64,000 bases of DNA, from NCBI GenBank assembly GCA_031763025.1, contig JASSKH010000038.1, positions 248,001-312,000 of the forward strand, written 5' to 3'. The notes below the pieces were generated by a model. The model made no database searches. It saw nothing but the letters and a program-made list of their open reading frames with translations, and was not told where the DNA came from. The translations under genes were made by a program, and so were the position numbers. Shown here in pieces: positions 2,023 to 54,229 of this stretch (position 1 is the first letter of the stretch; every line of letters starts with the position of its first letter). The stretch comes from Macrocystis pyrifera (Eukaryota > Sar > Phaeophyceae > Laminariales > Laminariaceae).

Positions 2023-2458
2023 TGTGATATGAGTAGAGTATTCATGGGCTATAGATATAGATAATACGTTGCAGTCTTGTAGTTTCACGAATACGAGAAT
2101 AATCCAAAGAATAGATTAACCCGGCGGATATTCCGTTAGTCGAGAGTATCGTTATTTTAGGAATGTTCCCTAGGGCGGATAGCCCGTTAGACGAGAGTAA
2201 TGTTCCTTGATGCAGATAGGACTACGAAGTGAGAAGTTCTTATATTAGCAGAAGAACGACCGGTAGCCATAGGAAAGTTCTGTTGGAGTACATCAGATAA
2301 GAGGAATTTAGGAGAGCTTGTGGCGTGGGGTGGGACGAGTATATCTGGGCGTCGAGTCCCGCCCCCCTACCTCTCACTTCTCTACCAGAGCACCTCCTCA
2401 GCTCTCGCCATCAATAAGAAGATCTAATCAGAAGAAGCGAAGCACTGCTTTTCCAGCT
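2023..2458 (+). repeat. LTR 1 (5' LTR of element I, or a solo LTR)
   Basis: It begins TGTGATATGAGTAGAG and ends near TTTTCCAGCT. It is repeated at 14576-15010 with three substitutions and one 1-base indel in about 436 bases (my count by eye), so the pair is recent. The sequence contains several 'cggatattccgttagtcgagag' / 'cggatagcccgttagacgagag' internal near-repeats. The five bases GCCTT occur immediately before it (2018-2022) and immediately after it (2459-2463), which is what a solo insertion with a 5-bp target duplication would leave. That conflicts with a simple reading of it as the 5' LTR of element I. No primer-binding site starting TGG follows directly. Confidence 0.8.
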
Positions 2459-2463
2459 GCCTT

Positions 2464-2557: not shown

Positions 2558-2565
2558 GCCATCCC

Positions 2566-5531: not shown

Positions 5532-7172
5532 ATGGCCGAGAAAGCTTCCTCCACCAATATTCCCGGCGCCCACTCCCCCGACGCCACCAACCCCCGCGAG
5601 GCGAGGTATGCCGCAAGGGCCTTTCGCGCTACCGACGACGACACCCCTGGCTTCGAAGCCATTCTGAGCGACTTCACGCTACACCCCACCACACCGGGAT
5701 CTTCTCCAATGGGAGCAGGCACGACCAGTGCCGGGCCTACCATCAACCCGGAGGTCTCTGCACAGGAAACCTCCACCCTGGCTCTCAATCCGGGGCGTTA
5801 CCAAGGTGATCCCACGGCCCTCCGTGAGCGCCGTGCGGCCCTTAAAGCCCACCACGAGCAGCTCCTCCTTGTCGCGAAAGAGGGCGCTGACCTCCTACTC
5901 GTGTTACCGCCGTCCCCCACCCCTTCCTCGAACCCTTTCGACTCCACCTATGGGACTACAGCTGCGACCGCGGCCACCACGGCCCAATCGCAGCCGTTCG
6001 CTCCTCACCATGGGCACCCTATACGTCCGCCGCGATGTCTAGGACCACCACCTCCCAGCCTCCCAAAAACCAAACTGGGACCATGATGTCCCAGGCACCA
6101 CTACCGGCCCAACCCTTGCCAGCCCCCACACCCACTGGACACCGGCACCCGCAGACGTTCGGCTTTGAGCCCAATGACTGGGTCTTCCTCGATGCTAAGC
6201 TCCGCTGGATGCAGAGTACACGCGACGCGACGGCCTCGGATGTCTCGCTAGAGGTACACCGTGTATGGCGGCTCTTCACACCCGACTGTAACCCGTCGAT
6301 CACTTTCGTTCTGGCCCGCGCCGCCACCGAGGGTGTTTCTTCCGAGTTCATCGGGGGCCGCCCATACCCGTTTACTCGAGCCACGGTATTTTCATTCGAA
6401 CGCCGGCCGCGGCTACGTGTGGAACCCAACCGTCTCGACCCGCTCCCCCGACACCCTCAACCACCCGCCCCACGACGGACATGCCGTCGCCGGCGACACC
6501 GTCCCTTCCCACCTCGACAGCGCCCCCTACGACGACAGCGCCCCGCTCCTCACGAGCGCGTAGCCTGATGACGAGAGCCAACACGGAGCCCACGACGGAG
6601 GCCGAACGTCGTGGTGTCCCACGCCCAAGCCCTACGAGCTCACGGTGACCACTGCCCCAACTGCAATGGCACGGACATAGTATGAAGACTTGCCCCCTGC
6701 GCTTCGCAACACGTTCGGCATCCTCAGCCCGGTAGTCGAACACGCCTACCGCCAATGGCAGCAGAGGATGCTCTCCTACCGCCGTGGACAATACGAGCGC
6801 AACCTGGAGCGAAACTCCAACCGCTACGACAACAACAACCGTCGAGGCAACAACAACAACAACCGCAGCGGAAACTACAACAGCAACCGCTCCAACCAGA
6901 ACCACTCCCGCAACTACCGCGGCAACAACGGGCGCTCCGGCAACTGGCGCCACAACAACGGCCGGTCATACGACAACGGCAACCGACAGTCGCCAGGGCA
7001 ACAGTTCCAACAACAACGCATCGAGCCGGACCCCTCGTCTTCCGCGTTGACGGTGCATACCCCTGCGACCAATACTTCCGCACCTGCCGCCCCCGCGAAC
7101 ATGCGGATGGGCAGCACCAACTCGGGCACCCACCCGAACCAACGGCAGCCGGGAACCTTCCGCACCAACTGA
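5532..7172 (+). pseudogene. Element I gag (structural protein), frame-broken
   Basis: The region is GC-rich and coding-like, and its reading frame changes several times (frames starting at 5532, 6035 and 6690). From N to C: an Ala/Glu-rich segment with an 'RERRAALKAHHEQLL' helix near 5830-5880; a more globular block at 6140-6400 (FEPNDWVFLDAKLRW); a zinc-knuckle remnant at 6653-6693; then a basic Asn/Arg/Gln-rich tail (about 6770-7020) typical of a nucleic-acid-binding nucleocapsid. The block after the knuckle (LRNTFGILSP...QWQQRMLSYRRGQYERN) aligns with element II at 37130-37240, confirming shared descent. Gag packages the element RNA in virus-like particles. With the indels present no full protein can be made. 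Confidence 0.65.
6653..6693 (+). other. Degenerate CCHC zinc knuckle in element I gag
   Basis: Spacing fits C-x2-C-x4-H-x4-C: TGC CCC AAC TGC, then four codons, then ATA (Ile) where His is expected. The last Cys is in another frame because the span is 41 instead of 42 bases. An in-frame TGA sits at 6681-6683. So the knuckle is recognisable but doubly damaged. Confidence 0.55.
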
Positions 7173-7999
7173 CAAGCCGATGGTGGAGCAACTGCCGCAT
7201 CTCCACCAACAGCATCTACTGCGAGCACCCGAGGCTCCCAGGACGCACGAGTAAATCACGTGCATCACGCCTCCCCGACCCCTGCCCTCCAATGCCCCCC
7301 CCCTACCCCAGCCCATTTCACAGCCACTTGTTCAAGCACTGATCATCTTGCCCAAGTGATTGCCTTGAGGTGTGGGCGGGAGGAGGCCAAGACGCCGAGC
7401 CCTACCGGGATGCTCCACTCGACGTCTTCTGGCGGTGAGCAACGCTGCTTGCCGACTATTGCCGAGACCCCAGACATTGCTACCCTGGGAAACGTCTCGA
7501 CGATTACGGCTACCAGCGGTTCCGGTTCACACGAAACTAGTGTTTCGTCTACCGGGCCATCGCCCCCTGAGCCTGCCTCAAATTGGCCGCTCCATACGCG
7601 CTTGTTCCAGCATGCGCGCATTTCTTGTGACAGCGTTGAACCCGCGAACGACGGGCTTCCTCCAGCTGCCACGGTGTTGACACCACCGCTGTCCCTGAGC
7701 CTCGAGGGACAGTCCCGTTTTAAATACGGAAGACTCGCGACCAACGTCGACCAGGGTCTGCCCTGAGCCCCCTGACCCGTCCTCCTCGCCTGCTTCGCGC
7801 AAAGCGTGGACACGGACCCCAGGTGTGGCATCCCCTAGCGAGTATGCCCCTGTTCTCCGAACGTTGGACGATAGGGGGCTTGAGGGTCGTTCCGCCCGGC
7901 TTATAAGCCCCGGCGAGGACCGCCCCGGTACCTCGGCTTTGCCGAGCAATTCCCCCGCGAACACGAGGGTTCCGGTCAGCACCGCTCGATCGTTGCTGA
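7173..7999 (+). pseudogene. Gag-pol linker of element I, unrecognised
   Basis: Frames are open in stretches (7260-7766 and 7825-8030) with Ser/Thr/Pro-rich, low-complexity composition. The frame beginning at 7825 reaches the C-run at 8046 and ends as '...DRKDYRRPPPTPN', while the NADAR frame is +1 relative to it from 8000 on. No domain is recognisable. It may be a spacer between nucleocapsid and the NADAR domain. Confidence 0.35.
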
Positions 8000-9895
8000 C
8001 TCTACCTCCGTCGACGCCAGGCGGCGATAGGAAAGATTATCGTCGCCCCCCCCCCACCCCCAACACAAAAGACGCCATCAACTGCACACGTCACCGCAGA
8101 GGCCGCCTCATCTTTCCACTTCTTCTGGGGCTCCTCTTCGGTCTTTTCGCAGTGGTACCTGTGCGACATCGAACACGATGGCGTCACATACAACTGCGCT
8201 GGGCAGACGATGATGGCGCAGAAAGCCGCGCTCTTCGGGGACATCACAACTGAGCGCCGCATCAAAGCGACCCGCGACCCGGCCCGCCAAAAAGCACTTG
8301 GGCGAACCGTTTCCGACTTCGACGAAATGGTCTGGGAGCGACACCGCTACACCATCGTCCTCTACATTAACTTCTCCAAGTTCCGGCAACACCCGGAGCT
8401 ACGGGAGGAGCTAATAGCAACCGGCGACAAGCACATCGCCGAGGCCAGCCCACACGACCTCATCTGGGGCATAGGCTTCAAGGCCGACCATCCGGACGCC
8501 TGTGACCCGACGCGTTGGCGTGGTCGGAATCTGCTGGGCAGGATACTGATGGACGTTCGAGAAAGCCTCGGCGCCAATTGCTCCGCCCAGCCTCCATTTC
8601 CTCCCCATCTTCACGACCCGGAGCCAACACCCGCCCCCACCGACTCCACTCGGGTCTCCCCCACAGCCGACGGCATCCACGAAACAAGCCCGACCCCTCC
8701 ATGGCAACCGCCTACCTCTCCACTTGGGCCACTCCTACCGCCGTCTACCCCCGACGCCTACCCGAGCAGCCACTTTGCCCAAGGGTCCACCATCAACACC
8801 GCAGCCCACAGCCACCTCCCTACCCACCGCCCGCCGATACCGGAACACGGACCATGCGGCATCATTACCGTCGACGACGCGTCGTTCACGACGAAAGTAC
8901 TCGTGCACAGCGGCCCCACCGCCACTACGCGCCGCGAACTCGTGGCACTGCTCGATACCGGCTCGCCCCAGTCGTTTATCACCGCAACCGCGGTGGAACA
9001 ACTGAAGGCTTCCCAGGCAGCCACCGATGCGTGCGAACGGCACAGTTCCCCCCGTTCATGGGGAGGTTTCGGCACCTCAGCCCCCCTCTCCACCTCCGTC
9101 TCCATCCGCTTAAGCATCCAGTCTATGCGCCTCCAGTCCCCCACCGCTGCCCTGGCAGTATGGGCCTGCGTAGTTCCTGCAGGAACCATGCAGCACCCCA
9201 TCCTTCTGGGACGAGACAGCTGGATGCGCCTCGAGCAACGCTCGTATACCACGCTCCAGCAACAGCCCACCCCCCCCCACCAACCTCCCCGGCGAACCCG
9301 CGGTGAGCTCTCCTTGAACCACCATGACCCCAACGGAGCCTCAGCATTCATTCCCGACGACCGTTCCACTGACGACGTCTACCACCTCCGATTCGCCGGC
9401 AACAAAGCTATTTCGCTTTCCTCCACCCCCAAGCTCGTCAAGGTCAACCTGGCGCGTCAGTCAGGCGCTCCAGCATTTACCGGGAACTACATGGTGAACA
9501 TGCTCCCCCGCGAAAACCCCCTGTCCGACCCGGCCATTTTCGTCTCCGACGAATACCAAACGGTCCCACTATCTGGATCTACCGATCTCGAGCCGGGCGA
9601 CCTCCTCGGAACCTCCTGCTCCCCACTGGTACAGGTACCACTTTCCACCCTTGGACACCCTTCCTTGGCCCCTCCCCATCCCCCTCCGATTCCGGATGTA
9701 CATGCCCTCCACGACAACATCCCCGTGGCCGACCAGAGTCCATCGACAGACGACTCTCCTACCGCACCAAAAGCCCCGTGCCCACAACTTCTTGCACGCC
9801 TCAACGCCGACCAACGGGAAAGCTTCCTCGACCTCTGGGAACGTCTGCCGTTACACCTACGCGACGTCAACTTCGACCTTCACGGTTCTAGATGA
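8000..9895 (+). CDS. Element I pol segment: NADAR domain + aspartic protease
   Basis: The frame is open without interruption from the TGA at 7997 to the TGA at 9893. Counting from 8000, residues about 35-190 form a NADAR (DUF1768, YbiA-like) domain: FFWG..., VFSQW, a Tyr-x-x-x-x-Gln block with QKAALF, W-E-R, KFRQHPELREELIATGD, EASPHDLIWGIG and RWRGRNLLGRILMDVR. This is the family's motif order. NADAR proteins cleave N-glycosidic bonds of ADP-ribose-type substrates. The conserved Glu of the N-terminal motif is Gly here (GGG). A Pro/Ser-rich linker follows, then a retropepsin-type protease (residues about 290-420) with LLDTGSPQSFI and the later [11 protein letters not shown] motif. A beta-rich linker ending LEPGDLLGT completes it. 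Protease and linker are the usual Ty3/gypsy order; NADAR there is not. The closing TGA replaces a TGG seen in element II and the RT frame continues past it. Confidence 0.85.
   Translation, partial: LYLRRRQAAIGKIIVAPPPPPTQKTPSTAHVTAEAASSFHFFWGSSSVFSQWYLCDIEHDGVTYNCAGQTMMAQKAALFGDITTERRIKATRDPARQKALGRTVSDFDEMVWERHRYTIVLYINFSKFRQHPELREELIATGDKHIAEASPHDLIWGIGFKADHPDACDPTRWRGRNLLGRILMDVRESLGANCSAQPPFPPHLHDPEPTPAPTDSTRVSPTADGIHETSPTPPWQPPTSPLGPLLPPSTPDAYPSSHFAQGSTINTAAHSHLPTHRPPIPEHGPCGIITVDDASFTTKVLVHSGPTATTRRELVALLDTGSPQSFITATAVEQLKASQAATDACERHSSPRSWGGFGTSAPLSTSVSIRLSIQSMRLQSPTAALAVWACVVPAGTMQHPILLGRDSWMRLEQRSYTTLQQQPTPPHQPPRRTRGELSLNHHDPNGASAFIPDDRSTDDVYHLRFAGNKAISLSSTPKLVKVNLARQSGAPAFTGNYMVNMLPRENPLSDPAIFVSDEYQTVPLSGSTDLEPGDLLGTSCSPLVQVPLSTLGHPSLAPPHPPPIPDVHALHDNIPVADQSPSTDDSPTAPKAPCPQLLARLNADQRESFLDLWERLPLHLRDVNFDLHGSR
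8045..8060 (+). promoter_or_regulatory. C-run ahead of NADAR: candidate frameshift site
   Basis: A run of ten C (8046-8055), broken by one A and followed by four more C, lies where the upstream linker frame and the NADAR frame overlap. Element II has a C7 run at the matching place (near 38508, about 60 bases before its NADAR domain). Slippage here could join gag to pol, or the run may simply be an indel hotspot. Inference only. Confidence 0.3.
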
Positions 9896-10043
9896 ACCCC
9901 GTCGGTGATCAACAACCTGGGAGACGTCCTCTGCGAATTCCAGGACGTCTTCTCCACCACCAAGACTGACTTCGGCTCGTGCCCGCTCATGCCGTTCAAG
10001 ATCACCGTACCCCCGGACAGCCCAACGGCTCGAGCTCCTTTCA
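9896..10043 (+). pseudogene. RT N-terminus remnant of element I
   Basis: This continues the protease frame after the single TGA. It reads VLCEFQDVFSTTKTDFGSCP...MPFKITVPP, the typical start of a Ty3/gypsy reverse transcriptase (x-F-x-D-V-F-S, then P-F-x-I). It stops abruptly at '...TARAPF' (about 10040), after which the sequence resumes in another frame as the end of RNase H. The palm, the Y-x-D-D motif and the body of RNase H are absent. Element II keeps the matching part (39.9-41.4 kb), so this is a deletion of roughly 1.3-1.5 kb. Confidence 0.75.
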
Positions 10044-10046
10044 GCG

Positions 10047-12702: not shown

Positions 12703-12960
12703 TATAAGGCGCGCGACGGCCTTTGGTGGCTGGGCAAGGTCGCTCACAGCTCACCCCCTGACGCCTCTTCGGGAACTCCGCCGGAGTCTTCACCGGGAAG
12801 CTCCTACATCGTCCGGTTCCTGGACGACCCCGGCCCGATCAAGATCGACCTCCAACCCGCCCGCTACACTACAGCACGGAACGCCGTACACGGATCGTGG
12901 TGTCTTCAACGCCATGGGAATGGGAGCCTAGCACGTGGGGTGCTGCGAAACTCTGATGTG
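12703..12960 (+). pseudogene. Tudor/Agenet-like C-terminal tail of element I pol
   Basis: Read through the TGA, the frame continues with a conserved module: DGLWWLGKV, then YIVRFLDDPGPIK, then PARYTTARNAV and SWCLQ. Element II has the equivalent DGLGWFGHI...LLRFL...DDPGLIK...[10 protein letters not shown] at 44290-44440. The spacing of aromatic pairs and the short beta-strand pattern resemble Tudor/Agenet/SAWADEE-type reader folds; that fold is my inference. It follows a chromodomain, so this family may carry two chromatin readers at the pol C-terminus. Confidence 0.5.
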
Positions 12961-14575: not shown

Positions 14576-15010
14576 TGTGATATGAGTAGAGTATTCATGG
14601 GCTATAGATATAGATAATACGTTGCAGTCTTGTAGTTTCACGAATACGAGAATAATCCAAAGAATGGATTAACCCGGCGGATATTCCGTTAGTCGAGAGT
14701 ATCGTTATTTTAGGAATGTTCCCTAGGGCGGATAGCCCGTTAGACGAGAGTAATGTTCCTTGATGCAGATAGGACTACGAAGTGAGAAGTTCTTATATTA
14801 GCAGAAGAACGATCGGTAGCCATAGGAAAGTTCTGTTGGAGTACATCAGATAAGAGGAATTTAGGAGAGCTTGTGGCGTGGGGTGGGACGAGTATATCTG
14901 GGCGTCGAGTCCCGCCCCCCTACCTCTCACTTCTCTACCAGAGCACCTCCTCAGCTCTCGCCATCAATAAGAAGATATAATCAGAAGAAGCGAAGCACTG
15001 CTTTCCAGCT
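14576..15010 (+). repeat. LTR 2 (3' LTR of element I)
   Basis: It starts TGTGATATGAG and ends CTTTCCAGCT, and is about 99% identical to 2023-2458. It is preceded by a purine-rich tract and by sequence homologous to the 3' end of element II, so it is at the expected place for a 3' LTR. Flanks are gctaa before and gccag after, with no target duplication. Confidence 0.88.
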
Positions 15011-15278
15011 GCCAGAACAACCTGCGTCCCTTGCCACTACCCTTACCACTACCCTAGAGCGGTCACCGCATCACACCTTCCGATCGGAGCACGCGAAGGT
15101 GGTGTACGCCGCGGGCCCCTCACTGCTGGCTTTTATGGACGCTTTCCCAATGAAGACCTTGCACATGGTGCTAACGAACTCCGACCCTTCGTTGCTAACG
15201 GCGACATTTATTACGGTCTGCGACCAGCTGTTCGCCCTACGCAAGGCGCATCAACAACTCCACAATCATTACTACTAA
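15011..15278 (+). pseudogene. Gag-like open frame after LTR 2
   Basis: The frame leaves the LTR open and runs about 88 codons to a stop at 15278. It includes HTFRSEHAKVVYAAGPSLL and a helical tail ending FALRKAHQQLHNHYY. The 'S-E-x-A-K-V-x-Y-A' pattern is common in retroelement capsid regions. It may be flanking gag of an older element into which element I, or its LTR, inserted. No start of its own is evident. Confidence 0.35.
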
Positions 15279-29800: not shown

Positions 29801-32800
29801 ACCCTATCCCCTGCCGAGTGAATGGTGCCCCCGCCGAGCCATCCCACGGTAGGGATGCACCCGACGCGTGCCCTGTCATTCTGCGTCTGTTGCATCACCT
29901 TGATATTATATCTGTGTTTGTTACATTTCCTTTCGTTTCCGATTATGTTCACATTATTTCTTGGTCCGTCTGTCTCTGTCCTCTTTGTGTCGGTCGTGTT
30001 GCCCTTGACCCACCAACTGGACATATCACTGCTTATTTCTTGTTTGTTGTTGGTGCTTTGTCTCGACCCTCTTCTTGTATTCTCGCTTTCTGTCTGGTCT
30101 TCTTATGACGTCCATTTGTAGGTCCATCGTATGGACATATCATACGACTGGTCGTACCCGCAGACAGCAGCCTTGTCCTCCGGACCCGTCCTGCGCCTTG
30201 GGCGCATGTTTGCTTCGTTTTCCTATTTTTATTCTTCCCTTTCGTTTTCTCTTTGTTTCTCCGCGATTTTCTCTCTTCGTGTTTTACAATTTTCTTTTTC
30301 ATTTTTGTCTTGTCGAGTGTACATAAAACACCATAGACTCATTCCTGGTGGTGTTAGGTTGAAAGTGATACGGGATGGTATACCACAGCTCGTTAGCACC
30401 GATTCCCTCACGGACTGGTATGGTACTGCCGCGCGCACTATTTCGTACTTGTTTGCTTTCTCCCATCGAGATGCAGTTTTCGCTACAGCCTGGTTTTGAT
30501 ACCATAGGCAGGATTTCAGGGATGTAAGCCAATGTGAGAACATCCATTATCATCATTATGACAGAATGGACAGCGTGCAATACAGGGGTGCATTCATGTC
30601 GTTTCGATCGCACTGAATTACCTTTACTGAAACAAAAGAAGATAAAAGAACGGTAATTTTGTTGTACCGAAAACATTTCTAATCAGGAGAAACTAGTGTA
30701 GAAAGCATCTGGAAAATATAATACTACAATTACAAATTCTACAGCCATTGCACGAAAGCATGGCTTCCAGCCTTTGAGTTGAGTACGTCTAACCCCTAAG
30801 CTATACTTCAAACATCGCTGGAAAATTTCGATGTATCAGCAATCTTAGGATAAATAACGCGGGATCACAAACCCACGAGACTGGTTTGGACGGTGTTCGG
30901 GTAATCACAAATTTCACCCTTTTGCACGGGACGAGAATTCACGGGAGTTGCATACATTTCACGGTACTAGATTACAAGGGATCGGCATTTGAAAAACAAT
31001 CACGGGGCGGAATCATGCTGGAAGGGTTACCCAAGTCCTGCCGTCGACGCCATATGTTAAACTCAAATCAGGACACTTTGCACCCCTTGATTGGATTGCC
31101 TATTGAGCGGTTACTCGTTGGGACTCACGTGTGTCTTCTGCTTAGAGATAAAAGAAGAGCAGTTTTATGCCTTTCGTGCACGATGGGAACTTGGAGCAAG
31201 AGGCGTTCTACGGTAATATAGGTTACCCTATAAACGCTGGGGCTCCAATGTCCCCACAAGTTATGATACATAATTCAAAGGGGATCAAATATGAATAGGA
31301 CTATTAATCATGCTACAAGCATCTCGTACGTGTACGTACACAATTTGCCCAAGAATATAGAGCACAATATACATACTAATCCCTCAATTCGAGCCCGGGC
31401 AAGCACGCCGAGGTGATTTAGAAAGGTTTGCCCATATGTGATACCTCTATCGTAGACCACCTCGCAAGGCTTGTGCCTCGTTGGGAAAACCTCTGGTTTT
31501 CCTTCTAAGATACGCCTCCCAAGTACTACAAATACGATCGCAATACCTGAGCCCACCACGTAATAGCCAGCCCTTCAGCCTCATTCAAAACAGTGTACCA
31601 TAACAATCGATAATTGCGAACATTTCCATGGGATAAGTTCGGACTGGGACCCTTGTTCCAAAATTCCACGGGATCACGAGATATCCCGTATCCCGTCGGA
31701 ACGCGCGGTGTTTTTGCGGCTATTTTCACACCGAGAAAATCCGGAAGAAAATAGGGTGGCCTTAACTATACCTGAAGCTCCCGCCCTGACGTTTCGTATC
31801 ATACGATGAGGCGTTTTCTGAAAAACAGCATGGGGTTGTGTGTCCCCAGCTTTCGAAAACCTAAACAAAAAAAAACACGAGCAAGCACGGGGCAGCTATC
31901 GATCAAGCAACAAGCAGCTGAACACCGCCGCCGCCGCTGCGAGCCCCGAGCCGCAAGCGAGAACCACCGGAACTTTGTTTCTGGGCTCCGTCCTGTTGGT
32001 GTGTTTTTTGCTGTACGATTGCTGCGCCATGGCGGGACAGCTGCATCTCGGCAGCCTCGACTCAAACACTCCTTGCGAAGCAAAACAAATTCCAGCAGCA
32101 ACAATGGCGGCATCCCCCTGGTTTAGTTTTCTCCGACTCGAAATTGACTCCAGACTCCAGAATGACCTTTTATTAGCGCTGCGCGCACGTATTTACGTAT
32201 ATATATACTAGCAATGACGCGGCAGTAATGTTGTGACTACTGTACAAGTACGTCGTACTACATTTAGACGATACAGCAGTAGGAACGTATCTGAGCCTGA
32301 TACCTCATCCAGACGTCTTCTCTTTTGTGTGCGGCACTACAACAATACCAGTATAGTAGTAGTAGCGTATTGTAGCCTATCCAATGTCGTCAATTTTGTG
32401 ACCGAACAACAACCACACATATTTCTACAGTACAGCGAAATGTATTATGGAGAGTCGATGATACCACAACGACTACGATAGTACCACAGTCTACCATCCA
32501 GCAACGCACAGAAGTTGACGGCAGTTTTATATACCTTGCTGCTCGAATTCCTGGCGATAGCTATACTACCTGAAAGGAGTCTTAAACGCGAGTCTCTCGT
32601 CTGGACACGCACGCCCTGCCACAGTGTGTCGCAGCTGATTTGTCGATTAGCGTACAAAGTCGTCTACATGCATCTATTATGGAACTGCGTTTTTTTTTTA
32701 AAGCCCGGTAGTTACCTGGGTTCAGGTATTTGGCGTCATCTTTGTAGTACTTGGGAGGCGTACCTTAGACGGAAAACCAGTGGTTTTCCCAGTAAGGCAC

Positions 32801-35800
32801 GAGCTTGGGTCTCAGTCTCCGGGTGCGCCAAAGGAATAAAATGGCTCTTCTTCTATCTCTGAGCAAACAACACCCGTGAGTACCAACGAGTACCAGCTCG
32901 ATGGGCAAACCTGTCCAGGGATACAAAGTGTCCCGACCTTGATCTTAACAAGTCGCGTCTGCGGCTCAGGATTTTTTCACCTTTTCGTTGACACGCGTTT
33001 GGCCACTCTTTCTTTTCTGTTTGTTTTCCTATAGAACGTTTTCCCACCGCAACTGCACGATGGAGACTTAAGAGGTGGGAGGGTCTGATTTCCATTGCGG
33101 TGGCCGATCCGCTGAGGCCCAAGGCCCCTCAGTACCCCATCGCCGAAGGAGCATCGATCGGAGTCGAGCGTCTTGTACAACAGGCCAACAAGGGGAGCAA
33201 GAGTCTCGGCAGGTGCTCCAAGACGACGATGTGGATAGAAGTCCTTGCACAACAGACCAACAAGAGGAACAAGAGTCTCGATAGGAACCCCAAGACGAAG
33301 CCCGAGCAGCCCCCAGAAGACGCACCTCGTCCAAAACACCCTCCGTGCTTTGTCGCTCGACTGAGCGAGTTCTGCCGTCCAAGACAACTGGACGCCCCCG
33401 CTCCGTGTCAGCAGCCAGGCCTTGGGTATTGTAGGTTTGACTGCCCCCTCGAGCCCTCTACCGTCCAAGACACCTGGACGTCCTCGCTCCGCTGAGCGCT
33501 TACGCAGCCAGCCCGTAGATCTCGCTGCTTCTGCGTTGGACCTGAGCACCTTGGACAAACCTGGACCCAGCGGTCTCCACACCACCCAGCTGCACTTTCA
33601 GCATCGGGTCTACCCGCGTCTGGGCTACAGTAGATGAAGGATTGTTCGAGATTGAGGTTCTGCTTCGTATTCCATTGCTGTCCGACCCTGCTCGTACTCG
33701 TGTGATGACGGCAAACGAAAATGCCGCTCGTGAAATTTTCCCCGCGCCTCGCCCACACGATTGCACACCGGATTCCAGTATTGCACCTTCTTTCCTCGCT
33801 GGGATTCTGCCTTGTGTTTCAGTACTGATGCGAGTCTTGATACTGCTCTTAGTGGGAGAGACGCTGCCACTCGTTTAATTTTTTCCTGCACCAAGTCCTC
33901 AAGTTTGACCACTGAATTTCAGTTTTGAGCCTGCTTTCCTCGCTGCTGTCGCCACCAACAAAGTTTCTGCTGGGAATTTCGGTGCCGATGCGAGTTTTAG
34001 TAGTACTACTAGAGGGAGCGACGCCTCGAATAGGCCCTCCTGTACAGGGGACATTAAACCACTAACCACACCTTCTGTTAATACACGTACAGACAGTGGA
34101 GACCGGCCAGACGACCGCCCTTCCACCGCGACACTTTCTGTGGGCGGTGCTCGCTCTCCCAGCCCTCGTAGCGTTCGCCGCATGGCACGCCAAACCTTGA
34201 CCACTGCTGTACAAGTTGTTAAAACAAGCCGCGGCTGTTTACACCGTTGCTCTTGCGCCTTGCGACGCTGTGACTCACCGAATCAAGTTCCCCTCTGCCG
34301 TGGTCTCCCCCCCTGCCCCTGCGTCTTCCCTCGCTTCCATAAACTTTGCCCGTCCCCGCCACAGCATGTCACGGGAGGCAAGTACATTGGAGGCGGCATC
34401 CCGCCCGGACGGGTGTACCAGCGAGCTCAGAACTTACGGCTCCTCACCAGCGTCAGGAGAGCGGTCGCTCGAGCTTCCAGACCTCACAACTCCGGAGGAC
34501 GCCGTGGACTTCGAGCCCACCGACTCGGAGGACGAGCGTCTGGCGGCCGCGAGACTTACAGTGTGCAAGCCACGCCCCCTCTACTCCCTGGAGAATGGAC
34601 CTCCCTCCCGTCGCCGGCCAGGACGGCTAGTCTCGTGCAGTGGCCTGCCATTTGGGGCATGCCGCGGAGATCACGGTGGAACGCCAGGCTCCCGTCCAGG
34701 CCGACGGACTTTGTCCGGCGCCTACGACCGGGCCGACGGCGTCGCGGCCGAGCGGGCGTAGGCCGCCGCCGAAGCCTTCGGAGACGCCTCGGAAAAATCA
34801 GTGAGACTCCGGGCGGTCACGATCACGATCGCCAAACAAGAAGCGGAAGCTATTGCTCGCGCCGTCACCGCCGCCGCCACAGTCTCGGACACTGCCGCCA
34901 GCGCCTCTAAGGCTGCCGTGAGTGCTTCCGAGGACGCAGTGCGCTCCGCCTCCCGTGCCCGGGAAGCCACCTCCTGCGCCGCGCCAAAGAAGCTCTGCAA
35001 ACTGCCCGGATAGACAGAACCACGAAAACCCGTCGTTTTTCCGAGGCTGACGCCCCAGCTGAGAGACGATCCTTCATCACGACCGCTCCCGCTCTAGCCC
35101 CCGTTTCAGCCCCCCGACAGGGCACGTCGCACCAGAACACACCGGCGATGTCGCGGTCGACTCACGGACCCGGAGGTTCGGGGACGGGAAATATTTTTGT
35201 AGGGGAGTGTCGCCTGCATGGCGGCCGAGCCCAAACTGTGCTTTCCTTCTGAGACGGCGACAGTGGTGATCTCGACCGCCCACCGACTCTGACGCGAAAT
35301 GCCCGACGAAGACTTTTCCGTCGACGACGCCTGGATCCAGATGGCTGTTGGCCTCTGTGAAGCTCAGCAACGCCGAGCGAATACCATGACCCTGGTGGTC
35401 GGCCTCCGGAAGGCGCACGGCGCTTCTCCCACCGCCGTTTCCTAGCCTGAACCTGAATCCTACATCGCCCACTGCAAGCGTCAAACATATTCCGTCCTCC
35501 AGAGACACCAGCTACCACACGTGGGGAAAGACTCTAGACTGGACCACGCCCCCTTCAACAGCCCCTCGGACAACCGGGTCCACCCGCACCCCAGAGTTGG
35601 AGATAGCTCTGCGGCCCGGGACAGCGCCCGCCGCGCGCCGGGGACCCGGACCACCGGCGCCCGAGAGTTGGAGGAGACTCGGTCGGCCAGGACGGCGGAT
35701 CTTGCCGTGGCGTAGGAGCGGGCAACGGAAGCGGCAAGTCTCGCCGAAACGGGGCTGAAAGTCGGGGAAACCGCGCCAAGGGTAAGGAGAGCTCGAATAA

Positions 35801-38800
35801 CGGGCGGAACAGGAGAAGCCGCCCATGAAGAGACGCTTTTCGAGCCAGCTGCTCCAGCCCTTCCACGATCGGAAGCAGAAGAGCTCTCGTCCCCGAGATG
35901 AAGGACATGAACATCAAGAGGCAAGTGGTCCCCTCATCAACTGACGTTGTTTCTCCCTCCGCGCTTCTTTGCCGCTTGATCATGTCCAATGACCGCGTCA
36001 CGCCCGTATCGTCAGTCATTGCTCACGCCCCGACATCGACGATCGACTTCGCCACCGCAGCCGCCGCGAAAAAGTACACCGCGGACGTTAAAGGGGTGCA
36101 GACAACACCTGAGACTCAAATACATCTCTCGCTCTTTTTTTCTACCCTTTCCCCATTCGATCAACCCTTCCGACGCCGCGTAAAATCTCACTCGTTCGGT
36201 CAAGGTCTCCGAGTCTGAAATTATCATGATGTTCAACGATGACAGCCACGAAAGCCATAGTTCTACCAATTGGATCCTCATTTATGAGTACCCCCCCCAG
36301 AATTTCTTCGCATGTGCCATCATGCCTGATAAACCCACGACCGCCCCCCTTACTACCTTGGTGAATGATTGGTTTGGGAGGTGTCGCGTGCCCTCACAGG
36401 CTGAATCACGGGACCGGAGGCGTTCACGTTCCTCCTGAGGCTACTGAGCAACCACTTCGATCGCACCGACTCCGGGGCCAGCTACACTAATTTCATAGTT
36501 TGGGCATATCTAACGGGACTCCCTTGTGGGAGCTCAGCTAGGCATTTCAAGGGGTGTTGTCGGCAGCAATGGGGACTGAGCATGTTTTGGCACGGGGTTT
36601 GGAGGTTGATTTGGAAATAGTTCGGATGGCAGTTAACGAGTAGTACCCCAGTTTGATGCCCACGCTGTACCCGGACGTTTGACTCTGGTATCGAGGCCGT
36701 TCGGCACTTTGGACGTCATGTGGTCGGCGTTTGTGACTCGAGCCATGTTTTGCTTTGCCTGCTTCTTCGACGGGTGCGCGGTCATCTGCCCCGTCGGAGC
36801 CCCGACTAGCCAGTAGTGGTCGCAGCCAGGACCGGACACCTGCCCAGTCGCCTTCATGGCAGACGGGATGGTGAAATAATCTGCTTCTGACCAACGTCAA
36901 CAAATCCATCCCTGACTGCCTCGATCCGTGACTGGGCACGTCCTCCAACTGTTGGGCCCTAGACGAACGCCACTACCCTGACGTTCACACTGTCTGCCGG
37001 TTCATCCAGTCAGATGACCCTCCCCTTTGGAATGGTCTACGTTCATCGTCCGCTCATGCAACTACACTCGGTGAAAACCGAGGCTACTGCTTTAAATTCC
37101 TCGACGATTCACACTCCTTCAGACAGTGTAGACATCCTTTCGAAAACCTTAGCGGCATTTTGAACCACGACCTCGGAATTCTCGGTGACGACGCCGAGGC
37201 GTTCCGACGTTAGCAAGAACGCATGATCCGACACCGCCGGGACAACAATCCTAACGACCGAACATACACCACATCACGAAACACCACAAGCGTCGTTTTT
37301 GTCACTCGCGTGGGCAGCTCCAAGGCCAAACTTAGCAGAACAGAGAAAGCGACGACTACAACACACACGCTGAACGAGGACACCAGCAGTCTAACTCTGC
37401 TCATCACGGTGGTCGTCCGACCGCCCCTGCTTCTTCATCCCCAGCTCCCGCATCGGGGATATACTACGGTGCTTCGCACAACTCGGGCGGAAACCCGGAC
37501 GCCAGTCAGGCACCTTCTGCGCCAGTAACTGACAGATCGACGGCGGTTTGGTCCCTCCTGCCCGTCCGCCGCCAGCATTTCCGGTAGAAACAACATTGAC
37601 CTCACAAGATGCGCGTTTCCCAGACTCGCTCAGCGCTCAGCGCCGACCTGCCCCGACCTTGCCCCGCACGTTGCCCCGTACGTCGGACCGACGCAGCGAC
37701 TCAACCTTACTGTTTCACAGGAGAGCCCCCGGGGTTCTCTTTTGGCGTCGGGAGCCCGCGCCGCCAACGCCGCTTCACTCGGCCTGGGCACGAGAGCAAG
37801 CGCGCCTAACGCCGCTCTCTCGAACCACGCACCACGAATCACCACGATTGTCGCGCCGTCGCGTTGTTGGTTTCGGCGAAGGTGTCTTCATCCTTCACCT
37901 CCCGGCCATGCGTTGGCAGTCGGTTTGCGGTGCGGGGAGACCAACACACCACACCCCCGAGATTTCGGTTGCAGCTTGACTCAGCGTTTCCTTGCAATAA
38001 CGGTGACCGCTCCACCCGGTTTCCTATCACGGAGGAGTCGACAATATTATCTACCTCGTTCCCCTTTCCCGAAATGCTCTACAGGAAGGAAGCCCTCATC
38101 GGTGGACACTCCGTTGCCCCCACCCGAGCACCGTTCGTGACGTTGTCTACAGGGTCTGCAGGCCTTCGTTCGTCGTTGCGCACGCGACTCCACGTGCGCA
38201 GCGCTTTTCGGCTCCAGTGGAACAGGAATCAACTGACACTACGCGTAGAGCCACTGGTGACTCCACGGCTTCCGGGCAGATCAACTGGACAGCATACCGA
38301 TTAAGATCGGAGGAATCGTAGCTCTCGTCAAACAGAACGAGTTCAGAGCCCCCTGCCCTCTTTGGTCCTAGACAGAGACCATCGGGCGCAGTACGAGAAC
38401 CGTCTGGAGAATGTTTACCTACATACAATGGTGACACAGAGCGAGTATATGTGGAACCGGACTCGCCTCGTGCACCAGGTGCTCAGTGTGCTCAGAGAGG
38501 CACACTGCCCCCCCATACCGCAACTGCGGCCACCGACGTCTCGGCACAGTCGGTCTTCGACCCTACTTTCGAGGATTCAACGGGGCAGGTGGCACTGTTC
38601 TGGCAGCCCCCCTCTTATTTTTCGCAGTGGTCCCCCTCGTCTTTGGTCGTTGACGATGTGTCATATTCCTGCGCGGAGCAGTATATGATGATTGAAAAGG
38701 CTCGTGATGTTCAGGACCACGACGCAGCGGAGCGGATTATGGCCTTGCCAGACCCACGCGCGCACAAACGCCTCGATCGAGGCGTGCATAACTTCGACTG

Positions 38801-41800
38801 CGCTATCTGGGACCGCGTTCGGGAAGACGCCGTCTTCGCAGGCGCTTGTGCTAAATTTACGCACAACCCGGCCATGAAGGAGCACTTATTGAGTACTGGC
38901 ACCAAACGTTTGGCTGAAGCCAGCCCTTTTGACCCCGTGTGCGGCATCAATCTCCCGGCAGACGACGCCGAGGCCCAAGATCCCTCTAGGTGTTGTGGGA
39001 TAAAGTTGTTCGGGATACCTCTTTTCGCCGTTTGTGACACCCTTCGCGCAAGTGAGGCCGGGTTGGCGCACCTCGCCTCCTCTCATCAATTTTGTACTCC
39101 AACCATGCCCGACAAAACTCATGAGATTTCGACTGCGCCCCCAGCCCCTTGGCCGTGGCCCGCGCATGTCCAGGACCTCTCTTAGAGTTTTTGACCTGTT
39201 TTGCGCACGCGCCTGCTGATCACAACCCCGAGGTTTTGGCTGTCGCACGACCCCTCCGTCGCGCTTCCAGAACTCGGTCCCTGCCTCGTCGGGGGCACCA
39301 TCACCCTCGACGATCCCTCTTTTACAACCAAAATCGCTTTTCACAGTGGAGCTGTCCTCGCGCCTTTTGGATGTATGGCGCTTCTAACCACTGGCTCCCC
39401 GCAGACTTTTATTCGACGAGACGTTTTGGATCGCATGCTCTCGTTTGGGGCGCAATCCATCGCGTGCGATCAGAAATACTCCCCTCGTGCTTGGGAGGGG
39501 GTTGACGAATCGGCCCCTCCGAAATCTTCGACGAGTGTACAACTGAACGTTCAATTGGTTCGAGAAAATGAGGCTACGTGCTCCTTCGCTGTTTGGGCCT
39601 GCTTCGTTCCCCCGCAGTGATGCAGCATGCTGTACTGCTGGGACGTGACAGCTGGATGCGCTCTAATAGCCGCTCCTACCCCTCTCTGCCACCTCGGCCG
39701 TCTGACCAACGCAGCAACGGCTCCCCGGCACTGACCAGACACTACTCGGTCGACCTGATGCCCCAGCCCGACATTTCCTCGGTTGAGGAGCACTTCGTCG
39801 CCTCCGGACGACAGGTTCTTCCCCTTGTTGGAGTGGCGAATCTCGAGCCGGGGGATATCCTCGGCGTCGCCCACGACCTAGTGATGAGAGTTCCGCCTTG
39901 ACGTTTTTCTCCACCACCACCGAGCCCCTCACCCTCCCTCTGGACTTGCTGGGGTGTCTCCGGTCTCAGCAGTTACAGCTTCACACAGCCTCGCGCTCGC
40001 CTGCTCTGCTTGAGCGCTTGGGTCCAGAACAGCGCACTTCGTTCCTGCGCGTCTGGGCACGTTTGCCGTTATATCTGCAAGCGGTGGCGTTTGACCTCAC
40101 GGCCCGGACTGGACCCCTGAGGCCATCGAACAGATGTAGGGTGTTCGTTGAGAATTTACTGACGTTTTGTCGAAGTCCAAGTAGGAGTTTACTTGCTGCT
40201 CCCTGATGCCTTTCGTGATTTTGGTCCCGGAAGGAAGCGCTCCAGTCATGTCCAGGCCACACCACATCAATCACATCTTGACCGAAGACATGGAGACCAC
40301 CTTAGACCAGTACCTGGCGACAGGAATCATCCAGCACTCGATCTCTCCGTCCTCGAGCCTGCTGATGGTCATTCCGAAGAGGTTTGGTGGCGTTCAGATC
40401 ACCGTGAACTACAAGAAACTTAACCAGATCACCAGCCTCAGCCAGCTGCTTATCCCTCGCCCGGATCACGTCCTCAACGTCCTGGGGGAGGGGCGCATCT
40501 CTTCCTCCTTTTGTTTGGTCGCTTCGTTCCTCCAGATTACCACGCACAAGGACGCTGTTCGCCTCACGGCATTTGGCACTGCCACAGATCTCTACACTTG
40601 TCTCGTCATGCCCAAAGGCACCAGTTCTTCGCCCGGCTGGTTCGTCAAGGTGATTAACGAAACATAAAAAAATTGGCACAGGTGGCGGCCTACCTCGATG
40701 ATGTGATCATTTTCGACTCGGATCGGACAGGCCACGTCAAGACGATACGAGCCCTCTTTGAACACCTGCATAAAAACAACTTCAAGCTTTCCTTCTGGAA
40801 GGATCACCTCGGTGCCACCGACGCGCATTTTCTGGGGCACTCTGTTTCGCCCGTGGGTATACGCCAAAATGCGGAAAAAACTCGGCTTGGATGCAAATTC
40901 CCATGCCCAAGAACCTCAAGGAGGATCGTGCGCCGATGGGCGGCGTGGGATATTTTCGCTATCTCCTGTCTGACATGTCCAAACGGATGCATCCTCTCAC
41001 CGACCTTCTCCGAAATGGGATTAATTAGATCTTTACGCCGGCCATGGAATTTATCGTCAGCCATTTCCTCGCCGAGCTCGCTGCCTCACGATTTTAACAT
41101 TTCCTGACTGGGACGCCGTAGCCGACGGCTCCTGCCCCTTCCACGTGTAGCGCGACGCCTGCATCGAAGGTTTAGGTGGCGCTCTCGAACAAGAACAAAC
41201 GGACAACTCGATACGGCCAATTACTTATATCAACCGCGCTACCCTCGATTTCGAGCAGTACTGACCCCGTTGTACCTGAAAACTGGCAGTATTGTCCGGG
41301 CCATCAAAAGACTCTGAAGTTACCTATGGGGCTTGGCGTTTCTCATATTTTCGACCCACAAAGCGCTTGAGAGCGTCGGCAAAATAGGGGACCATAACAC
41401 GCGAGTCCAGTGGTGACTCGTATTCCTGACCGCGTTCGATTGTAACTTTGAGTAACTCAATGGCAGAGTTCAACGAAAATACTGATTCTCTATGTCGTTT
41501 GTCGGCGCCCGACACGGAACACGACGGCAGTGGGTCTAGCAGCCTCACCCCCTTCGAGGACGGTGGTATCTTACTCATCCGAGCCTGCGGGCTCCGCTTT
41601 CGCTCTTCGCCATCCCCTGGTGTCAGTTTGGGTGGGCTGGTGCCCCGCACCGAAAATACCGCCTTGGATGGATTGCCTTTCACCTCTTTCGGATTTTCGC
41701 GATTTTCACGCACACGGACCACGTATGAGGACTGTCGACCTCTCCGATCATTTGGGGGAGATTCGTCGCTGGTGTATCGCTTCCGTCTCCACCGTCGATT

Positions 41801-44800
41801 GCTGTCTTGGCTTGGGGTTGGTTTCATCCACCACCAACCTCGCAATTGCTTCGGTGTTTGTCGTACCCTTAGGGGGCGACCAGGGCCCTCGCTGCGGCGA
41901 CGATTGTCGCCCAGCGCGCTGCTCTTCCAACGAGCACTTTGCAGGGAGCAGATTCCGCCGTGATCACTGATCCGACCGCGTCTGCCCCTCCGCCGCCTGA
42001 CAACCCGGCGCCTCTGATTGCATTGCCACTTTCAGGCCGCATCTCCACTCGGACGCGCCAACAAACAGCAGCACCGGGACGCCTGCTGTGGAATATGGCT
42101 TTGGGCCCGGCGGGGCGCCTAGACCATCCGTCCGGCGTGCTATCACCCCGCCGCGAGCCCCATGGGCGCGACCGCCCGCACGCGTCGTTATGGCCCCGAC
42201 TCCTGCCGCCTCGTCGGTCCCGACGGTACCCATCCCATCCGACCGCGACCGCACGAAGAATGTGGTAACTCTTATTTTAAGGTTTCCGCCGCTAACTGAC
42301 GCACCGCCCGTAATTACGACCGGCTTGGACGCCCTCGGCGTAGCTGCCGAATTTCAGTTCGGTGATTCCGCTGCGCGCTATTCCCACGCTTACTGGGCCC
42401 GAGGACAATGGACCGAGCCCGCGCGCCGCCATGTGATACAAGGCCCTCGGCCGGCCGGAAGTGTTTCCTGCCGACGTTTTGTCGTGTTTCCGTTTCCGCC
42501 AGCGCCCTTCCTTTTCGGAGGTTCAGGAGCTGGCTAACAAAGACCACTTGCACACCACCGACGCGAGCATTGTTCTACTCGCCCGACAGGTGCGGGCACG
42601 CAATGCCCGGTGGGTCGTACGGCCTGTTTTTTAAACGACGAGCCTACTCTCATTTATGTGCCGCTGCTCATGCACCCCTGGGTCATGCAGGCTTGTCATT
42701 CCACAGCTTCCTGCCACCCAGAAACCGCGCGCACTCGTATAGTCGAGCGTTTCTATTGGTGGATCAGTGGCATCTGCACCCGGTGGTGGTTACGCAACTG
42801 CTTTAAGTGCCAAGCACGGAAAACATCGCTGCAGACGGTCCGGTGACCCACCATCACGTTGCCACTGCCAGAGGGACGTAGCATCGCCGTCAACGGAGGC
42901 TAGTTCGGCCCTCTGCCGGTGACGTCGCGAGGAAGCACCTACACATTGCTTTTCACTGATAGTTTCAGCCGTCAAGCCGACATGTACGCCGTCACAGCGG
43001 CAGAGTTCACCCCTGAGAGCACGGAATACATTATAATCAAACGGTATATTTCCCTCTGGAAGCGCCCGCGCAGCGTCCTCCGAACAACGGTCTCCAGCTC
43101 TGCTCCAACCTTTCCCACGTGGTTTATCAGCCTCCCTGGCTTCGGAAATTGCCACCCGCTCCTACCACTCAAACGACATCGGTGGGGTAGAATGTGTAAA
43201 CCACGCGATGGACCAAATAATGGGAATGATCGTGAACGAGCTCCAACACAACTGGGATGAACAGCTCCCTCGTGTCGAGTGTGCGTAAAACAATCCCGGT
43301 AGTGCCGCCACGGGGTTGGCTTCCAACGAGTTCCATATGGGCCGGCTTCCACGCCTCTCCCTAGCGCTTTTCGAGCGTGCTGGAGGCGCCGGCCACCAGA
43401 GTTTGTCCCGCGACCACCTCACTTACTACGAGCTTGGGACGGACCGCCAGCAGCGCGCGTGCCATATCGTTTACGATCACCGCGCCGCCACTATTGCTCG
43501 CGTGAACCACCGCACCTCCGCCCTGCCCGACGCGCTGCATCCAGTCCAAACATTCACCGTTGGCGGCTGGGCGTGGATGTACAATACGATAGGGCGCAAA
43601 GCCTGACACGGACGCCAAAGTCGTCAAGGACAAACACTCAGTCAACTGGATGGGGCCTTAAAAGTCCTCGCAGTTGGCCGCTGTTCCCTAGCAGACGCCC
43701 CGGACGAATCTCCTCTCGGGGCCAAACTCCTGTATTGGATACTCCTTCCGATTTTCCCGGCGCTGATGCTCGCCGGCGAGCGTCAGTTCATCGCTGAAAG
43801 CCCTGTGCCAACCCCCACGACCGTGGCGACATGCCTAAACATTATCCAGCGGGTTTGACGTAATACGTGCTCAACAACATCTCCAAGAAATCCCCCTCGT
43901 ACCACGTCACCCAGGGCGACGTTTCGATCCCTCTTTAACGACTCGAAGTGGAAACGATCACCGGAACCCAATCGGTTAGAAGTCGAGGTGGCTTCATCGT
44001 GGTGATGTACAAGACGATCTGAGCAGGACGATCCCGTCCATCCTGGGAACGGGACCTGCAGCTGTCTCGCCACGAACGTTTGCGCTACTGGACCGGCACC
44101 CCGAACCAGCACCGCCAAATCAACCGCCTATATCGCTGGATGAGAATCGGCGCGGCACAACGGGCGCTTTCTCGGAGTATCGGCGAGCGGTTTCTGGCAC
44201 CCGGTCATAGCTACGTATCGCACGCCGATTGGCTTTGGCGATACACCAACATCGTGCTTCTCAACGGGGCCCACGTATGGCACAATTGCGACGACGGTCT
44301 GGGGTGGTTCGGGCACATCAGCGCGACTACACCAACGGATGGGATATACTTGCTTCGATTTTTGATGACCCGGGACTAATCAAGCTACCTCTTTCTCCGG
44401 TGCGCTACACGACTTCGAGGAGAGCTGTACGGAGATATTGGTGCCAGCAAATACGCTTGGCTAGCGCTTTCGCACGGGGGGTCCAACGTAACGTAGATGA
44501 ACCTCGAAACGCCGCCGTGGTTAGCTGATTTTCGCTTCTCCGCCGCATTGGTTATTTGTTTCTTGTCGTTTCCTTGGACGTTGGGAGGTGTTTTTTCTAT
44601 TTTCAGACGCTTTTCGAGTTTTAGGGTCGGGGTTTTGCTGCTCGTTCTGTTCCTGTTTTCGTTTTCTTGGACTGGGTTTGGGATGTTGTTTCTGCGTATT
44701 TTGTCCTGTCTACCCCCCGCTCAGTGTCGGGTTTGGTCTGGGTAATCGGGTCACTCATTTATGGCACAGAACACGTTTCCGGAGTTGAGGACTGGATTTA

Positions 44801-47800
44801 CGTGGCTCTTGACGCTTTCGGTGTTATTTTCTTCTCGTTTTTAGTGTTCACGTTTCGCTTTCCGTAGACACTTTCTCGCCCTCCCCTCGTTGCGGGTGGC
44901 ATGGCGATGGCTTCGGTTGACTATTTCGTCCAGTCCCTTACGGTTAGGGCTTCTTTTCTCTCTGTTTTACTACGTACCTTACCGGCTTCGTTACCTCGCT
45001 GTTGAGGGGTGTGGGGGTGGGTTTTTGATGAGCCGCATCTTCGACTCATGTTCTAGTTCGTGGAATCGGGATTTCTTTTTATTTCCCATGATAATTCATT
45101 TTCGGCTCATCAGCGAGGGCTAGCGTTACGATGCTGCCTTGAATGAGGCTGAACGCCCGGTATTTAACCAAGTTCAGGTAATTGGGATGTTACTTCCAGT
45201 ACTTGGGAGGCGTATCTTAGATGCGAAACCAGGGCTTTCCCCGCGAGGCATAATCTTGGGTCTCAGTCTCTGCGTGGATGATATAAATAAAGCTGCTCTT
45301 CCTCTGTCTCTAAGCAAACATCACACGTGAGCACCAGCGAGTACCAGCTGAATGGACAAAACCGTCCAAGGATCCAAAGTGTCCCGACCTTGATCTTGAC
45401 ACATCTGCATAAGCTACCCCGACCAAACCGTCACGGCGGGTATATGGTTTTGCTGCCGTCGACGTCATCCCGTTGCGCATTTGCAGTTACAAAGGAATGT
45501 GTCATACATGCATGTTTCCGCATGTGCCCCCGCTACACTAGGGCACGGCTGCGTGCGCAAAGTACTACAGACAATGCAGTAGTGCGCTTTTCATTTTTTT
45601 TTTTAATCCTCCGACAGATTGGTAAAAATACAGAATTTCATTGAGTAAGCAGGATGCTACCAGCATGCAACACCAACGAGTATCAGTTGTGCTACCAATA
45701 TGCCATTTACGAACACACATCTCAACCAAGGAAAACACCGATCATCGAAGTGCGAGTTTCCACGTGCCCATCACACGTTCTGCTACCTGTAGCGCACGTT
45801 AGCTTGACTCAGGGTGATGTATCACCTGTCCGTAGTTTCCGTAGGCTTTCCGAATTCGAAATATGTCCCCTGATCGTATGTGAACGACGAGGTTGCCAGC
45901 CGTCTCGATGAGTGACTCCGATACCCTCGCCGGTGTCGCCAAGGGGCCGGAGGAGGAGCCGGCAGATCTACAGACGTCCAAGGATTTGGGGAAATAGTAC
46001 GCAGCTTCGCACTCCAAGAGGCGAACGCTCCTAACACATAGCGCCAACTCCTTCTGTTGCATCTTACCGTACGGGCTTTCACCTGGAAATCATGGTGCAA
46101 GACACACACCGATTATCAAACGAACAGCAAGCTAACGTATCATCAACACCGTGCACATATTGTGGACGACGCCCAGATGACCAAGGGATCCTCTCTTGGC
46201 TACTCTGATAGTGATAATGCGGACACAAAGTGGTAGAAGGGGCAACGGGAGACATCATCGCGGGTATGCAATTTGTCACCGTTGAAATTGTCCTTTTTTT
46301 GCCATGACGATACGGTCGATTCCAAGCCCTGCACTGGTGTTAAGAGGTTATACTCTTATTTCGCCGGTGCCCAAAAATGCATACGAAAATGATTTACGTT
46401 CGATCATGTCACAACGCTATAGGGGTTAGAAAAACACCTAATATATTGCAGCTCCACACTCGGGATGAGTGAGCTATAAGTTTATACTATTAATACCTGT
46501 TTCATTTGGTTGTCCAAGCCGCTATCACATAGCGCAACCAATAAGCCACAAACATTCCATCTTGACAAGATAGAATACTAATCATATACGTAACCGATTA
46601 TCACCTGTACTACCCACTGCTTGAGGAGTACCTAGTCTACTTCATTTTTACTTTTGCTTAAATATATTTATTATGCTCACTCGATGTATTCTGCGAGTGA
46701 CTGCATGTTTTTTCTCTACGTCGCCGTTGCTTCTGTTGTCAGCATAGTATTGGAAATACGTGACTACTGTACTATATTTAATCCATTTTCTTTTTTCAGG
46801 GGTGAATTAAGATGTGGTCAATCGAACAATACCTATCATCGTAATAAAAACGCTGAGATCTTGGAGTAGAACGAGGGAAGTCATATCATGAATTGGTACG
46901 AACTTCCGAACGCCTGTTCCACCATTTCGATCTCGTCGTAAAACTGTCAAAGCATAAAGCCCAAACCACATGGCAATACTTGGACTCTAACGAAGGCATG
47001 ACATGAATAAATGTGGACGTTCCTCCTCAGCTAACCCCAAAAAAACCGAGACTAAACAAAACCAAATAAAAACACAGTTAACGTTTCTTCTCAAAACCGG
47101 AAAGCTTTCTCGAACGTATACGTCAACTCACCTGAATCGAAATAAATCTGAAATATCACTGCCCTGGTAGTGTTGTTGGGGGACTGGTACTATCTTCATT
47201 GTTATCGCTGCGATGATGGACTATACAATAAATGTACGTACAAACCTATTGTATGGAAGAGTCATTTTGGAGAGAGGAATATGAGGTACCAGGTGATTTC
47301 CAAACCGGTACCAGGTAAGTAGGTATTTGATCATATTTACGATGGTACTGAATGCCAAAATCCACTATTACGGGGGACCATAGTTAACAGCACCAAATAT
47401 TGTTAGTAAAAATACGTAAATATATAGGGTTTTGTACCGTAGGTCCTGTTAACTATGGACCACCGTAATAGACTTTGGCTAAGAAACCTTTCCCCCTTTG
47501 CTGTATGCCAAGCGATAACATCCGAGTATTTGTGAGAGAAACAATTCCTCGTACTCAGATGTACCGCCTAAGAGGCTCTACTGCGCTGTATTTTGAAGAA
47601 ATACCGGTATACTAATGGCATGACAACCCACGGCTCAATCTGATTTGAATTTCTTGGCAGCTATAAGAGCAACATATCATATCGTGTTTAATCCCAAAGG
47701 AACTCAAAGCCCGTCAGCAATTGTTGTCTTAATGATATCGAACAAGTACCCTGAGGGGAAGGTGAGTCAGATCTTGCGACAGCACGCTCGCAGTCCATAG

Positions 47801-52590: not shown

Positions 52591-52612
52591 CTGGGGGGGG
52601 GGGTAGATTGAT

Positions 52613-54110: not shown

Positions 54111-54229
54111 AGAGAATGGTGAGCTCTCTGCTGAGACTTGTGTTTTGTTGAGTTTGTGGGGGTTTGGTATGTGTTTACTGCGTCACATAATCGGCAATGC
54201 ATACTATAGCTTAGTACCACTTACAACTC

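Follow-up and report, generated by a model that had tools for sequence, protein, structure and literature searches.

A NADAR domain in the Pol frame of a Ty3/gypsy-type retrotransposon of Macrocystis pyrifera is recurrent and under constraint

Introduction

According to the passages cited here, the NADAR protein of P. nicotianae was shown by measurement to take ADP-ribose off guanine (PMC11543638), and the NADAR of the DarT1-NADAR system (DarTG1) likewise strips ADP-ribose from guanine. NADAR modules were also reported in RNA-based elements, namely in the polyproteins of RNA viruses and in ORF1 of the Tx1 long interspersed nuclear elements (LINEs) of Crassostrea gigas (PMC9503650, PMC12477816). 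The closest described system is one NADAR-bearing Gypsy lineage of Ectocarpus, e.g. Gypsy-12_Ec32, which also has a putative C-terminal chromodomain (PMC12477816, Genome Biol 2025). We describe here a 64,000-nucleotide stretch of Macrocystis pyrifera DNA (contig JASSKH010000038.1, positions 248,001 to 312,000; hereafter the window), in which an open frame at 8000-9895 encodes a NADAR domain followed by a protease within a Ty3/gypsy-type retrotransposon.

The NADAR-in-Pol layout is already in print and, because it is reported for Ectocarpus, no longer a surprise; an earlier note on the window, made from its letters alone, had not known this architecture as a standard layout, a remark that PMC12477816 has overtaken. 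Among the matches listed for NADAR, DUF1768 or YbiA with retrotransposon, Gypsy or transposon, we recognised no other description. The Ectocarpus lineage and the window element share the same layout, as likened by description, but they differ in several points. One lineage was reported in the 200.2 Mb Ectocarpus assembly and two NADAR families were found here in a 537 Mb assembly, and the window copy is without reverse transcriptase (RT), has a Gly at the position of a conserved Glu and shows a chromodomain match below threshold only. The RNA-virus and Tx1 LINE carriers, also likened by description, belong to different element classes. The P. nicotianae NADAR and E. coli YbiA are not parts of polyproteins, unlike the window domain. 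In contrast with DarTG1, no DarT gene was found among the 16 proteins, 15 of them encoded in the window (introns ignored), that went through two Pfam scans.

Results

The NADAR domain and the element that carries it

From its sequence, the frame at 8000-9895 is the N-terminal part of the Pol of a Ty3/gypsy-type retrotransposon carrying a NADAR domain. As the earlier note had read it, the frame is uninterrupted and holds a NADAR domain and then a retropepsin DTG motif. The PF08719 match covers profile positions 1-162 of 163 with 162.3 bits against a cut-off of 35.1 (E 1.5e-47). The predicted fold is that of YbiA, which marks the NADAR superfamily, with the P. nicotianae NADAR (PDB 8bau, 35% identity) as best structural match and 31% identity to E. 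coli YbiA (PDB 2b3w). Both the profile search and the structure prediction, proposed in that note as checks, agree with its reading of the domain. The features of the element are as follows.

2023..2461, + strand: 5' LTR (long terminal repeat), 99.1% identical to 14576-15013, outer ends set by eye
6681..7763, + strand: probable gag remnant, Arg/Asn/Gly-rich, with one internal stop (open reading frames 6681-7172 and 7173-7766, one frame)
8000..9895, + strand: uninterrupted open frame with NADAR, linker, protease and post-protease region (Pfam scan)
8120..8569, + strand: NADAR domain (PF08719 profile match)
8570..8842, + strand: Pro/Ser/Thr-rich linker, the matching stretch disordered in the predicted model of copy L031
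8843..9247, + strand: retropepsin domain with DTG motif at 8954-8962 (sub-threshold Pfam match; fold of L031)
10025..10029 (about 10027), + strand: deletion junction, about 1.17 kb lost, from comparison with copies L032, L033 and L040
10705..12699, + strand: integrase frame with H2C2, core (rve) and, near the C-terminus, a sub-threshold chromodomain match (Pfam scan)
14576..15013, + strand: 3' LTR, pair of the 5' LTR

The two LTRs, a hallmark of Ty3/gypsy elements, were 99.1% identical over 439 aligned columns, and the element at 2023-15013 therefore looks like a young insertion; inspection of its ends by eye showed no target-site duplication, and no tRNA gene (0) was found in the window. A Pfam scan of the probable gag remnant gave no match. 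The protease match of the window frame is below the Pfam threshold, and the same region of L031 is predicted with a retropepsin fold; in the model of that copy (P0200) the linker has a predicted local distance difference test score (pLDDT) below 50 at residues 170-260. Compared with L032, L033 and L040, the deletion at about 10027 removes the RT domain and most of the RNase H, so that the window element now reads protease, end of RNase H, integrase. In the integrase frame, Integrase_H2C2 was matched with an E of 1.2e-15, the core rve just below its cut-off (E 1.3e-6, 29 bits against 32.6) and Chromo far below (E 0.1, 13 bits against 25.1). The Ty3/gypsy order protease - RT - RNase H is seen in L031.

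Outside the element, 20946-24461 contains two direct repeats, one of 99 bases at 93% identity and one of 143 bases at 96%, spaced by about 3.2-3.3 kb. The region 52085-62968 has repeats about 370-515 bases long, with about 78-79% identity.

Copies and families

A PF08719 profile search of the 537 Mb assembly gave 1264 first-look candidates; the 150 that were scored were all above the cut-off, and 126 of them had no internal stop in the NADAR match. The copies form two diverged families, with NADARs about 50% identical between them. The copy set used below has 101 rows from 100 places, window included; 61 rows belong to the window's family, and the other 40, from 39 places, to the second family. 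The window itself also holds an element of the second family.

32700..45401, + strand: degenerate NADAR element belonging to the second family, with putative LTR remnants
38598..39047, + strand: NADAR domain of the second element (PF08719, 116.9 bits, E 1.4e-33)

The putative LTR remnants of this Ty3/gypsy-type element (32700-32950 and 45152-45401) are 78.7% identical. Its Pol is frameshifted; its NADAR retains the site Glu and Lys described below and has lost the WGIG motif.

A chance fusion, or transduction of a host gene in this one copy as the earlier note had envisaged, can be discounted almost entirely. The second element and the 150 scored matches led us to reject one-copy transduction, and the 101 rows, the homologous NADAR and protease proteins in public data and the Ectocarpus lineage (PMC12477816) point the same way. 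That note had called for a search of other genomes for NADAR and retropepsin in one open reading frame; a protein search with the window frame as query found 63 proteins, of which, counted by hand, 44 have PF08719 and 39 have PF08719 together with a DTGS motif. One of the proteins, P0063 (882 residues), has the precomputed Pfam domains PF10021, PF03747 and NADAR and may thus combine several ADP-ribose-processing domains in one chain.

In the second-family copy L031 a single frame runs for 1503 residues or more; NADAR, RT and RNase H all score above cut-off in it, and a DTG motif lies between. In the window's family, seven copies were read over 5 kb: four (L034-L037) span the same deletion junction as the window copy and three (L032, L033, L040) still have RT. 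Shorter loci cross the same junction (L026, L028-L030), with L017 and L018 ambiguous. Since the deletion of about 1.17 kb is common to many copies, the window copy would belong to an RT-less group that multiplied, presumably in trans. At several loci (L029, L030, L012, L019 and others) a long frame lying upstream, in a different reading frame, runs into the beginning of the Pol frame.

Selection on the domain

The ratios of nonsynonymous to synonymous substitution rates (dN/dS) between the families were obtained for L031, the sole second-family copy used, against L032, L033, L037 and L040. They were 0.17-0.21 for the NADAR, 0.18-0.21 for the protease and 0.37-0.41 for the post-protease region. 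For RT and RNase H, compared with L032, L033 and L040, they were 0.08-0.15 and 0.06-0.07; these ranges exclude the parts of L037 that flank its deletion, which gave 0.12 (74 codons) and 0.25 (34 codons). As far as these rough sequence-based values go, constraint on the NADAR between families matches that on the protease (dN/dS about 0.2). The claim of the earlier note that a NADAR domain is built into a Ty3/gypsy-type polyprotein before the protease thus holds for a real and recurrent arrangement that is under constraint.

Within the families, sorted by the number of copies sharing a variant, dN/dS was 0.66 and 0.81 for variants seen once, 0.55 and 0.26 for those in 2-4 copies, and 0.45 and 0.62 for those in at least five copies, all on small counts (window's family and second family, respectively).

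ADP-ribose-site residues

The positions of the ADP-ribose site were taken from the alignment to 8bau, the chain numbering of 8bau and the mutants described in the cited passages of PMC11543638. The site Glu and Lys probably correspond to residues 28 and 35 of the domain.

8201..8203, + strand: Gly codon where the ADP-ribose site has its Glu (E43 in P. nicotianae NADAR, E88 in E. coli C7 NADAR), from the alignment
8222..8224, + strand: conserved Lys codon (K50 in P. nicotianae NADAR, K95 in E. coli C7 NADAR), from the alignment

The window copy keeps the Lys and has a Gly in place of the Glu, whereas its families of copies retain both: the Glu in 58/61 rows of the window's family and 39/40 of the second, the Lys in 61/61 and 38/40. 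All Glu exceptions are Gly, in the window, L096 and L070, which are mutual near copies, and in L050 of the second family. Stops inside the NADAR were found in none of the 61 rows of the window's family and in 6/40 of the second. In a wider set, the Glu was present in 25/28 retrotransposon domains, 127/127 short proteins and 80/80 viral sequences, and the Lys in 28/28 retrotransposon domains. The Glu of the EASPxD motif was present in 61/61 and 40/40 rows; it would be equivalent to the last-strand Glu of the YbiA family, where the BC4488 family has Asp. From the alignment, the window domain would thereby differ from the DarT1-linked NADAR subfamily, which has an Asp where the YbiA family has a Glu (PMC11125620).

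Because Gly replaces the conserved Glu and RT is gone, the window copy is not expected to act by itself. The same Gly, in this copy and two of its nearest copies, would suit a catalytically idle NADAR serving as a binding or structural module (for RNA, ADP-ribose or tethering), as would within-family dN/dS values of 0.5-0.6. We consider this explanation unlikely, as Glu and Lys are retained in nearly all of the 101 rows, in two families, and in 25/28 and 28/28 retrotransposon domains of the wider set.

Origin of the domain

A NADAR tree was built from 109 rows: 28 retrotransposon domains out of 73 candidates, 56 short proteins from a set of 127 and 25 viral rows from a set of 80. The 45 retrotransposon candidates left out mostly had less than 85% profile coverage, and the retrotransposon label was given from similarity (for P0065, from 67% identity alone). 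The retrotransposon rows split in two: P0137 and P0144, both short proteins, joined one group (support 99/88) and P0165 the other (99/92), so that the window's family and the second family stand beside different free-standing NADARs. They formed a single clade in 0/200 bootstrap trees, and constraining them to one clade did not reach rejection (p 0.273). Protease and NADAR trees of 20 rows, judged by eye, conflicted only at weakly supported forks.

The window frame was 76% identical to protein P0003 in the protease, 77% in the post-protease region and 51% in the NADAR (120 columns), and 82% and 71% identical to P0005 in the protease and the NADAR. The window NADAR is 41-54% identical to free-standing NADARs, and its 51% identity to P0003 is no closer. 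L031 and P0008 share 62% in both domains, and in several other pairs the NADAR is at least as similar as the protease. The lower NADAR identity in the window's lineage may possibly reflect module exchange, faster evolution or saturation near 50% identity. Repeated uptake or exchange of the NADAR, as a swappable packaged hydrolase, by the same retrotransposon lineage would suit the tree grouping and the P0003 comparison, but it seems improbable on the sequences at hand.

In viral contigs, a single domain as query matched a pattern in two stretches, none of them a relative; with alignment A1 as query, 481 of 536 stretches encode a NADAR, and 80 loci were kept as tree rows. Matches were found in 710 of 50,697 phage records, and none of these is a near source because all 710 are below 60% identity.

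Discussion

The explanation that we find best, and to which we give about even confidence, is a particle-packaged ADP-ribose hydrolase maintained by selection; its catalysis, packaging, release, substrate and benefit are what we infer. A Ty3/gypsy lineage would have acquired a NADAR domain similar to YbiA. In intact relatives, the NADAR would be made within Gag-Pol and packed into the virus-like particle, where the neighbouring protease possibly frees it. It would hydrolyse N-glycosidic bonds to ADP-ribose, most likely in the RNA or complementary DNA (cDNA) of the element itself, or else in ADP-ribose compounds near them, and the genome would thereby stay copyable. The chemistry named in the earlier note, removal of ADP-ribose from nucleic acid, is the one measured on guanine for the P. 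nicotianae NADAR. The modification might be made by a defence enzyme of the host or arise in ordinary metabolism, with a slight lean to host-made by comparison with the NADAR/Macro proposal for RNA viruses.

In a sharper form of this explanation, which is possible and which we put forward tentatively, close to the anti-defence module suggested in the earlier note, the host ADP-ribosylates the RNA, cDNA or proteins of the element and the packaged NADAR reverses this. By analogy, such a counter-defence role is plausible: in the cited passages, bacterial NADARs are antitoxins to ADP-ribosyltransferases (PMC11543638, PMC11125620), and RNA-virus polyproteins with NADAR and Macro domains are argued to target host ADP-ribosylation (PMC9503650). 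An arms race might also give the lower identity to P0003 in the NADAR than in the protease, but this divergence may as well stem from module exchange, saturation or weak constraint, and the genome gave a single PARP exon match (35 bits, cut-off 26.7).

The NADAR might instead process the element RNA as housekeeping, e.g. at NAD-derived ends or on RNA-repair products. For the Ectocarpus lineage, its authors broadly propose that the domain helps to process RNA intermediates (PMC12477816), NADARs are linked with RNA repair systems (PMC9503650), and the position in Pol would bring the domain to RNA. However, the cited passages show no NADAR activity on RNA ends, and we hold this alternative to be rather doubtful.

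Several points weigh against a packaged hydrolase under selection. We know of no host transferase acting on the element, and hydrolase activity is ascribed to retrotransposon NADARs by analogy. The copies were chosen by NADAR score, which biases the set toward conserved ones, and the between-family ratios are rough because dS (1.3-2.8) is near saturation, with only one second-family copy behind them. Within families, mean dN/dS is 0.60 (window's family) and 0.51 (second), and single pairs reach 1 to 2 on few changes; these ratios broadly fit the decay expected after insertion, and weak selection also fits. The Asn of the NLLG motif, present in 61/61 rows of the window's family, is kept in only 28/40 of the second. 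Finally, since the Gly at the site Glu is common to the window, L096 and L070, copies lacking the Glu have apparently multiplied as well, perhaps with help in trans, although independent changes are possible.

The selection data, the multiplied RT-less group and the possible exchange of NADAR modules add to what PMC12477816 reports. The roles of eukaryotic NADARs are called unclear in the cited passages of PMC11125620, and with so many copies and an uninterrupted frame like that of L031 the question can be put to the test. Should transposition depend on the domain as an active hydrolase, this would point to ADP-ribosylation of nucleic acid or of particle proteins as a live process in a eukaryotic host. 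If the repeated uptake or exchange considered above were true, a swappable packaged hydrolase of ADP-ribose would be the sign of a continuing contest with a eukaryotic defence based on nucleic-acid ADP-ribosylation.
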